Of a DNA stretch of 14,076 nt, positions 11,936 to 13,962 are shown in pieces. The stretch is from a bacterium (GTDB lineage: Bacteria > CAIWAD01). A program made the position numbers and the translations under genes. How positions within the stretch are numbered: position 1 is the first letter of the stretch; every line of letters starts with the position of its first letter. The stretch is taken from NCBI GenBank assembly GCA_030685015.1, contig JAUXWS010000094.1:1-14076 (forward strand), in the 5' to 3' direction. The notes beneath the pieces were generated by a model that saw only the letters and a program-made list of their open reading frames with translations, ran no database searches and was not told the DNA's origin.

Positions 11936-11962
11936 TCCGTCCGCACTGACTGTGACCGATTG

Positions 11963-12003
11963 CAGCGCCCGGCTTCCGCGAGGAGGCCGGGCGCTGTTTG
12001 TTC
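11963..12003 (+). terminator. Intrinsic terminator of the rpoBC operon
   Basis: CAGCGCCCGGCTTCC (11963-11977) pairs with GGAGGCCGGGCGCTG (11982-11996) through 15 positions, one of them a G-U pair, closed by a GCGA (GNRA) tetraloop. It is followed by TTTGTTC (11997-12003). It lies 27 nt after the rpoC stop and ends the conserved cluster. The U tract is short but the stem is very stable. The first REP-like repeat begins only 3 nt later. Confidence 0.85.
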
Positions 12004-12005
12004 AT

Positions 12006-12098
12006 GCGGTCAGACCCATCATCTGACCTGACCTTTGCCGCCGCGGTCAGACCCATCATCTGACCTTTGCCATCGCGGTCAGACCCATCATCTGACCT
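12006..12098. repeat. Left REP-like array: three 24-nt palindromic copies
   Basis: Three identical 24-nt copies start at 12006, 12043 and 12075. Each reads GCGGTCAGACCCATCA and then TCTGACCT. The arms GGTCAGA and TCTGACC pair around a 7-nt CCCATCA loop. Spacers are 13 and 8 nt and share a CTTTGCC core, so the real unit is about 32 nt; the first spacer has a 5-nt duplication (TGACC/GACCT). The last copy ends 9 nt from the 3' end of the RAYT gene. The stem core is shared with the right-hand palindromes (12911, 13072, 13241), which ties both arrays to the transposase. No CRISPR character: the spacers are too short and there are no cas genes. Confidence 0.85.
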
Positions 12099-12107
12099 GT
12101 GATCTGG

Positions 12108-12677
12108 TCATGTTCGAACCCTCCACGCCGTGAGGTAATCCGCCATGAGTTGTCTGTAGGCGTCTTGACGCCCGGACGAGGTCGTGGCAAGACCCTGATA
12201 CCAAAGCGTTGGCGTCACGTGAGGATTTGGATCGCCATGGGCATGGGCCAGGTAGCTGGACCACATGTAGTGCTGCGGCTCCTCCACAAGACCCGCCCGG
12301 ACTGGGTTTGACTCGATGTAGAGGTGACAGGTGGCGATGCGCTGGTCATCCTCCATCGGTTCGGACCAGTACCGTCCAATCCACAGCGAACCAGATCGGC
12401 CGAGCTGCTGGTTCATGCGTTGGGTGTGTCGACCGGCTGCGACCTTCAGGACCCGGCCCATGCTTCCATTCCGCTGAACCGAGAGGATGAGATGAATGTG
12501 ATTGCGCATGAGGCAGTAGGCATGCAAGGTGCAATCCCACGTCCGGGCTTGACGGGACAAGCTGTCCAGGAAGTTGTGGCAATCCTTGTCGTGGCAGAAA
12601 ATGTTGCCGCGGTTGTGTCCCTTGAGAATCACATGGTGGATAGTCCCTGCCTGATCGCGGCGGCGTGGGCGGTTCAT
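12108..12677 (-). CDS. REP-associated tyrosine transposase (RAYT, Y1/HUH family)
   Basis: This 189-residue protein reads on the - strand from ATG 12677 behind AGGAGG (12688-12683, 5-nt gap). It has the full RAYT pattern: the N-terminal GTIHHVILKGHNRGNIF (11-27), the metal-binding HUH motif in RNHIHLIL (H60, H62), a tryptophan/glycine motif LWIGRYWSE (98-106), the catalytic tyrosine Y120 in YIESNPVRAGLV (120-131), and YMWSSY (137-142). RAYTs cut and join single-stranded DNA at REP hairpins. The key residues are present and there is no frameshift, so it is probably functional. It is oriented against the rpoBC operon and is flanked by palindromes of one core type. A generic IS200 TnpA is less likely because of the NPVRAGLV block and the longer length. 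Confidence 0.93.
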   Translation of the reverse strand: MNRPRRRDQAGTIHHVILKGHNRGNIFCHDKDCHNFLDSLSRQARTWDCTLHAYCLMRNHIHLILSVQRNGSMGRVLKVAAGRHTQRMNQQLGRSGSLWIGRYWSEPMEDDQRIATCHLYIESNPVRAGLVEEPQHYMWSSYLAHAHGDPNPHVTPTLWYQGLATTSSGRQDAYRQLMADYLTAWRVRT

Positions 12678-12714
12678 CCGAGCCTCCTGCCTGGTCGTGG
12701 GTGCATGCGGACAG

Positions 12715-12731
12715 CGGGGTTCATGACCCCG
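12715..12731. repeat. Small inverted repeat upstream of the RAYT gene
   Basis: CGGGGT (12715-12720) and ACCCCG (12726-12731) form a 6-bp stem with a TCATG loop, 38 nt before the RAYT start on its strand. It could be part of the RAYT leader or a degenerate palindrome. The rest of 12678-12790 shows no gene; its right end (about 12770-12790) looks like a decayed copy of the tandem unit's tail. Confidence 0.35.
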
Positions 12732-12910
12732 TCATGTCACAGTGGATGCAACGCCAGGCGGGGAGCTTGGGATGCCTGTGGACACGGGTTTTCGCCATGA
12801 TCGGCGAGGGGTGTCCGAAGGGAATGACAGGCAATGCCAACCGGCCGGCCGACCAACTGGATTGATCCGTTGGCTGGTCAATGGATTTGGTTGACGGCGG
12901 CAGCTTCCGC

Positions 12911-12931
12911 GGTCAGACGGTTGGTCTGACC
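12911..12931. repeat. REP-like palindrome, right array copy 1
   Basis: GGTCAGAC (12911-12918) and GTCTGACC (12924-12931) form a perfect 8-bp stem around GGTTG. It is enclosed by TTGAC (12891-12895) and GTCAA (12935-12939), with a GCGG/CCGC hairpin between, so the whole could fold as a branched structure. Confidence 0.85.
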
Positions 12932-13071
12932 TCTGTCAAGGCGCCCGTGAACCTGTGTTGTTCACCATGTTGGAGGAGGAGTGTCCTGAGGGAATGACAG
13001 GCATGCCAACCGGCCAACTGGATTGATCCTTTGGCTGGTCAATGGGTTTGGTTGACGGCGGCAGCTTCCGC

Positions 13072-13092
13072 GGTCAGACGGTTGGTCTGACC
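13072..13092. repeat. REP-like palindrome, right array copy 2
   Basis: The 8-bp stem and GGTTG loop are identical to copy 1, 161 nt further on. The enclosing TTGAC (13052-13056) and GTCAA (13096-13100) arms are also kept. Confidence 0.85.
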
Positions 13093-13240
13093 TCTGTCAA
13101 GGTGCCCGTGAACCTGTGTTGTTCACCATGTTGGAGGAGGGGTGTCCAGAGGGAATGACAGGCATGCCAACTGGCCAGCCGGCCAACTGGATTGATCCGT
13201 TGGCTGGTCAATGGGTTTGCTTGGCGGCGGCAGCTTCCGC

Positions 13241-13261
13241 GGTCAGACGGTTGGTCTGACC
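13241..13261. repeat. REP-like palindrome, right array copy 3
   Basis: The inner stem is the same as in copies 1 and 2, 169 nt after copy 2. Here the outer arms are TTGGCGGC (13221-13228) and GCCGTCAA (13262-13269), which pair over 8 positions including one G-U. The outer stem is therefore longer than in the other copies although both arms changed. Confidence 0.85.
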
Positions 13262-13338
13262 GCCGTCAAAATTTCCCTTTCAAGTTAGAAAGTGAACAAC
13301 CAGCTTCAGCCATCCATTGATTCCAACTCGGAGATCCC

Positions 13339-13962
13339 ATGAAGGCGACCTTGTTGATACTCACCCTGGTCGGTGTGACCCGTTCGCATGGTCTGGACAT
13401 GGTGGCCATCCCGGCAGGAAGCTTCGAGATGGGCGCCACAGGCATCGCCACACCCGTGCATGAGGTCACCTTGACCTACGATTTCGAGATCTCCCGCACC
13501 GAGCTGACCAATGAACAGGCCCTGCCGGCCATCCAATACGCCTGGGACGCGGGACTCATCACGGTCGAGGACGGTTGGATCCGAGCCCATGGGCGCAACC
13601 TGATCCGCACCGAACTGACCCCGGCCTTCCATGAGATCAGATTCAACGCCGCCTCCGGGCAGTTCTACCTGACGGCCGCCACCGGTGTCTACGGCAATTG
13701 GGGACCGGGTTACTCCTATCCCAACGGCTACGATCCCGCCCCGCGCCCGGCCCACTACATGACGTGGCATGGCGCCGCCTCGCTGTGCGACTGGCTGAGT
13801 CTCTTGAACGGCCTGGAGCCCTACTACAACGGGAACTGGAATGCCGGCCCCGCCACACCTCCCCACGAGGCGGCGGGCTACCGTCTGCCCACCGAGGCGG
13901 AATGGGAGTATGCCGCGCGCTTCCCTGACGGCAGGATCTACCCATGGGGTCAGAGCTTGTGA
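13339..13962 (+). CDS. FGE/SUMF1-like (formylglycine-generating enzyme fold) protein, C-terminally truncated
   Basis: This is a 207-residue protein behind CGGAG (13329-13333, 5-nt gap). A short hydrophobic N-terminus (residues 3-14, TLLILTLVGVT) suggests a signal peptide. The FGE-sulfatase fold then starts with DMVAIPAGSFEMG (20-32) and continues with HEVTLTYDFEISRTELTNEQ, WHGAASLCDWLSLLNGL (143-159), RLPTEAEWEYAAR (182-194) and YPWG (201-204). Family members normally continue for roughly 50-100 residues or more, through a GNVWEW-type and an RGGSW-type motif. Here TGA follows three codons after YPWG, and no frame in the remaining 114 bp restores the family. The protein is thus probably a remnant, or interrupted. 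Substrate unknown; many relatives are not true sulfatase activators. A C-terminal part beyond the window cannot be excluded. Confidence 0.8.
   Translation: MKATLLILTLVGVTRSHGLDMVAIPAGSFEMGATGIATPVHEVTLTYDFEISRTELTNEQALPAIQYAWDAGLITVEDGWIRAHGRNLIRTELTPAFHEIRFNAASGQFYLTAATGVYGNWGPGYSYPNGYDPAPRPAHYMTWHGAASLCDWLSLLNGLEPYYNGNWNAGPATPPHEAAGYRLPTEAEWEYAARFPDGRIYPWGQSL

Follow-up and report, generated by a model that had tools for sequence, protein, structure and literature searches.

Among the systems described to date, TIRYT/TIRtron elements carry TIRs with the consensus GGGGWSAS, some of which are self-complementary, form clusters and recur across the genome (Di Nocera 2013, PMC3733652). For REP systems, the yafM gene of E. 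coli is known to lie between Y and Z2 REPs (Nunvar 2010, PMC2817692), and more than one REP subfamily occurs at nearly half of the sampled tnpAREP genes (PMC6006769); two different REPs around one RAYT are already a published arrangement. How RAYT enzymes choose a strand on a near-perfect palindrome is unsettled, with the flanking tag and the loop contributing variably by system (PMC8266576).

Here we analyze a window, a stretch of 14,076 nucleotides in which a RAYT gene stands between two arrays of short hairpins. We consider it probable that the locus belongs to the TIRYT/TIRtron kind of RAYT element, its gene bracketed by its own self-complementary, low-copy, non-GTAG end repeats; it is filed as a TIR-type RAYT element and not as a canonical REPtron because the GT[AG]G tag is absent. 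RAYT and hairpins together would make a selfish element of an ordinary sort, unusual in its flipped hairpin loop, and the window contributes a non-GTAG RAYT locus from a lineage of bacteria that has been sampled sparsely.

The RAYT gene and its flanking hairpins

From the translations, which supply the gene names, we infer that the window holds rplK-rplA-rplJ-rplL-rpoB-rpoC. A terminator-like hairpin 3' of rpoC (11962-11997, plus strand) delimits the rpo operon and lies outside the RAYT element. At the other end, a formylglycine-generating-enzyme-like ORF (13339-13962) aligns to no more than positions 4-136 of a profile of 255 positions and, near the contig end as it is, is possibly frameshifted or truncated.

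The RAYT/TnpA_REP-like HUH-tyrosine transposase gene occupies 12108-12677 on the minus strand and encodes 189 aa (PF01797, E 2.2e-12), with the motifs NHIH, LWIG and YIESNP and no long C-terminal domain. NHIH is the HUH motif, and the tyrosine lies in YIESNP, the class 2 Y---NP signature; an alignment of 17 homologues shows no variation in either HUH histidine, in the tyrosine or in the NP. The protein passes NCBIfam model NF047646 marginally (80.7 bits against a cut-off of 80) and stays under the cut-off of the IS200 model (23.8 bits against 55). A PDB search with the single sequence gave no match, a profile being needed to reach the TnpA_REP structure 4er8, which is the best PDB match of the homologue-alignment profile. 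With HUH motif, tyrosine, Y---NP signature and curated model all found, the protein can be assigned from its sequence to RAYT/TnpA_REP (TnpAY1 class 2), and the enzyme looks intact; among TnpAY1 subclasses 2.1, 2.4 and 2.6, it matches no published table row exactly.

The hairpins that an earlier note had seen around this gene are indeed present, six perfect ones starting at 12008, 12045 and 12077 on the left and at 12911, 13072 and 13241 on the right. The left array (within 12006-12099) consists of three identical 21-bp hairpins at 12008-12028, 12045-12065 and 12077-12097, spaced by 37 and 32 bp, whose loop reads CCCATCA on the plus strand and TGATGGG on the minus strand. The right array (12806-13269) is built of three tandem 161/169-bp repeats, overlooked in that note, each with one hairpin close to the end of its unit; no further copy of the 161/169-bp repeat was found in the genome. 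On the plus strand, the hairpin at 12911-12931 reads GGTCAGACGGTTGGTCTGACC, and those at 13072-13092 and 13241-13261 have the same sequence. All six hairpins are preceded by GC on the plus strand and five are followed by T, the one at 13241 being followed by GCC instead.

These hairpins stand well above chance. The window contains the motif GGTCAGAC nine times where 0.67 occurrences are expected, a count of nine being reached in 0 of 200 shuffles, and DNA folding of the hairpins gives z-scores of -3.5 and -4.2. Furthermore, 23-nt arms bracketing the RAYT are 87% complementary, and the flanking inverted-repeat score of 32 exceeds a null maximum of 25. A possible three-way junction, in which a TTGAC/GTCAA stem encloses a small GCGGCAGCTTCCGC hairpin together with the first right hairpin (12891-12939, plus strand), has modest support in the DNA fold (z about -2).

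One repeat family and its probable link to the gene

Searching the genome at up to 2 mismatches recovers 13 further copies on seven other contigs, with a single match to the reversed-pattern control, bringing the total to 19 sites; several lie at contig ends, making an undercount possible. The loops of the dispersed copies are TGATGGG, TGATTGG, TGAGTGG, TGGTTGG, CGATTGG and CGGTTGG, and the dispersed arrays repeat at about 44 bp including the spacer. As to the 5' GCGG put forward in the earlier note as a putative recognition tag, GC adjoins just 6 of these 13. No GT[AG]G stands beside the stem in any of the 19 copies, on either strand, and the hairpins are therefore not canonical REPs.

The left and right hairpins had been taken for two dissimilar families that share a stem, with one enzyme tolerating both element types. 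Within the window alone both loops and surroundings differ, which favors such a reading; it would have two unrelated repeat families converge on one stem that the same RAYT recognizes. The genome speaks otherwise: intermediate loops occur among the other copies, and one array on contig C17 alternates both loop types, with TGATGGG, CGGTTGG, TGAGTGG and CGGTTGG loops in succession, about 44-52 bp from one to the next and sharing a common spacer. Since the bridging loops among the 13 other copies grade into each other, the left and right sets are variants of one family, GGTCAGAYGRTKGGTCTGACC. The spacer of the right hairpins also matches that of the dispersed units (see below), and we regard convergence as extremely unlikely.

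The link between the gene and these repeats is favored by two comparisons that the earlier note had proposed. The motif is found elsewhere in the genome, as described above, and relatives lacking a close RAYT show background abundance: two same-genus genomes, one same-family genome and one same-class genome yield 0, 0, 1 and 1 matches at up to 3 mismatches (reversed controls 0-3), and none of the four has a RAYT nearer than 36% identity to that of the window. With about 19 copies and one genome holding the pair, the comparison suggests at most that the hairpins may depend on the RAYT. Neither an empty site nor a target duplication was found for the RAYT element; the sister species G001 has no RAYT at rpoC and its downstream genes differ, so the insertion cannot be dated there.

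The hairpins might instead play a passive part, as gene-end or RNA elements that recombination has spread, with the RAYT beside them by coincidence. On C1, C17, C67 and C78, copies stand immediately behind the stop codons of genes whose C-termini resemble one another and look like sorting domains (array sites L033 1-360, L034 1-340, L050 1-200 and L051 1100-1330), and because these copies follow similar gene ends, some of their spread may be due to recombination and not to transposition. As an account of the whole, this is very unlikely: three copies lie on either side of a RAYT, private flanking repeats are found at other RAYTs too, and the terminator scan called no terminator-like site at the RAYT-flanking hairpins.

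Two features of the assembly and its repeats may be mentioned here. Contigs C1, C17 and C67 start inside the shared gene-end stretch. In C69 (L036 5480-5860), a focal-type hairpin sits within a separate direct repeat of about 190 bp rich in TCTCCGCA, of which a second copy holds a decayed hairpin.

Loop and flank orientation

The claim that the left and right hairpins run in the same orientation stands in one respect and fails in another. Scoring against the dispersed copies, 13 in all, places the left loop on the minus strand only (equalled by random 7-mers at a frequency of 0.00025) and the right loop on the plus strand only (0.0003); because of these opposite fits, the hairpins form an inverted repeat when read by their loops. 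The flanks and spacers uphold the original claim. Specifically, the right-hairpin spacer GCGGAAGCTGCCGCCGTCAAC matches the dispersed-unit spacer, typically GCAAAGCTGCCGCRCCAAC, on the minus strand (p ~0.0005, the limit of 2000 shuffles), and the 3' spacers of left copies 2 and 3 also match on the minus strand (p 0.01 and 0.004); no spacer match to the dispersed units was seen for left copy 1. The loops alone do not settle the orientation as inverted, since the spacer points the opposite way. The right loop thus appears to be flipped relative to its own flank, with left and right flanks running the same way. Our literature search found no paper that brings together minute inversions, hairpin loops and palindromes.

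A second RAYT of the genome, on contig C19, sits between GTGTCCGAC hairpins, of which there are 34 perfect copies genome-wide. Many of these form pairs at a distance of about 190 bp whose inner sequence is conserved, and in the pairs both ends carry the 5' GGCA...TGCC element and the 3' CTG flank in one direction while their loops are opposite (CCATGGG, then CCCATGG). Because these pairs show the same conflict, disagreement of loop and flank is not peculiar to the window. The pairs themselves are inferred to be non-autonomous derivatives moved by the C19 enzyme, and a second RAYT with a private repeat family supports the gene-repeat link. A dispersed element of about 240 bp with GTGTCCGAC hairpins at both ends matches the ends around the C19 RAYT (L039 2858-3703, L071-L090, L035 432-644), and several contigs begin inside it.

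Flanks running the same way with opposite loops, both at the window and in the C19-family pairs, are also what one might see if, as for IS200/IS605 insertion sequences, the left and right hairpins were non-equivalent ends read on a single strand, with the whole unit moving as one transposon; the shared flank would then mark the strand, and the opposite loops would distinguish the ends or pair loop to loop. This is unlikely for the focal element, as its gene occurs once and the genome contains no other complete element, its protein falls short of the IS200 model and carries the class 2 Y---NP motif, and in the dispersed focal arrays every loop points one way relative to the spacer. It is similarly unlikely that the end hairpins, with same-strand flanks and mutually reversed (complementary) loops, embody a code for end identity or end pairing on single-stranded DNA; if true, such a loop code would be a recognition mode absent from the REP literature examined.

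For a TIRYT/TIRtron-type element, the right-hand arrangement could have arisen if the loop of an ancestral hairpin was flipped by one small inversion between its palindromic arms. The inversion would have come first, followed by tandem amplification of the 161-bp unit, and local amplification may likewise account for the three-unit arrays on each side. By analogy with TnpA_REP (PMC8266576), the enzyme would bind the folded hairpin on one strand of single-stranded DNA and cut close to the foot of that hairpin, the weight of stem, loop and flank varying between systems. It may also move or copy units into new intergenic sites, as the TnpA_REP literature suggests. With loop and flank cues disagreeing on one side of this RAYT, and likewise in the second RAYT family, both offer natural substrates with which to separate the two cues; for the locus in the window, this is its chief scientific value.

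Other RAYT loci and comparison with known systems

Inverted flanking repeats extend beyond this genome: of 25 further RAYT loci sampled from other genomes, 20 are flanked by inverted repeats whose score exceeds that of each of 60 shuffles, with a core that is commonly GGGGTCAG or GGGGAC, and additional loci gave more examples. We read these repeats as the published TIRYT/TIRtron arrangement. The focal GGTCAG corresponds to the GGTCAG part of GGGGTCAG and lacks its two leading G residues, as set against a GGGGWSAS-type core.

Other RAYTs keep different company. A third RAYT of the source genome (C100) and its relatives in G001 have DNHxH, YI[DE]ANPWRA and a DPLAGL C-terminus in common, and are flanked not by palindromes but by direct tandem arrays with a period of 11 or 22 bp (L038 1-94 and 911-1098 at C100 itself; L040 2330-2453 and L041 2054-2171 and 3084-3334 in G001). 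Two of the three array families are scattered widely through the genome they come from, and searches of the other three genomes did not find them: GGGCAACACCA arrays (101 33-mer matches) occur dispersed in the source species alone and TGTGGTGCCGG arrays (139 matches) in G001 alone, the remaining family being found only beside its RAYT. In the small sample of RAYT literature searched, we found no description of a RAYT clade with 11-bp tandem arrays, and this clade, with its species-specific arrays, is more surprising than the main locus. The start of a fourth RAYT (C6, L037 1-616) adjoins a GGACTGTCTGCAGACAGTCC palindrome and GACTGTCC repeats at a contig end; GGACAGTCC repeats, similar to these GACTGTCC repeats, lie beside a focal-type hairpin in C48.

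Set against known systems, the locus shares with the REPtron (a RAYT with GT[AG]G REPs) an HUH/Tyr enzyme, palindromes on both sides that differ in type from side to side, and dispersed copies. Unlike a REPtron, it is without GT[AG]G and its flanks are not inverted, and its roughly 19 copies compare with hundreds, the 19 sites lying below the usual figure of more than 100 per genome for canonical REPtrons. TnpAY1 subclass 2.6, with its atypical secondary structures (PMC6006769), likewise has no GT[AG]G tag and has copies elsewhere in the genome, but its row reads YIH[QN]NP and WQ where the focal protein has YIESNP and LWIG, and it belongs to another lineage. IS200/IS605 elements resemble the locus in their HUH/Tyr enzyme, hairpin ends and, possibly, same-strand ends; the focal protein differs in having Y---NP (YIESN) and not Y---Q and in scoring below the IS200 cut-off, and the gene in being single copy, with no tnpB seen adjoining 12108-12677. 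TIRYT/TIRtron elements have, as here, a RAYT-like gene framed by inverted repeats that bear no relation to GTAG REPs; some TIRs are, likewise, self-complementary, grouped in clusters and found repeatedly across the genome, and their GG(G)GTCAG-like core may be shared by the focal GGTCAG. The focal repeats differ in being short perfect hairpins, arrayed three to a side, with the loop on one side flipped relative to its flank.
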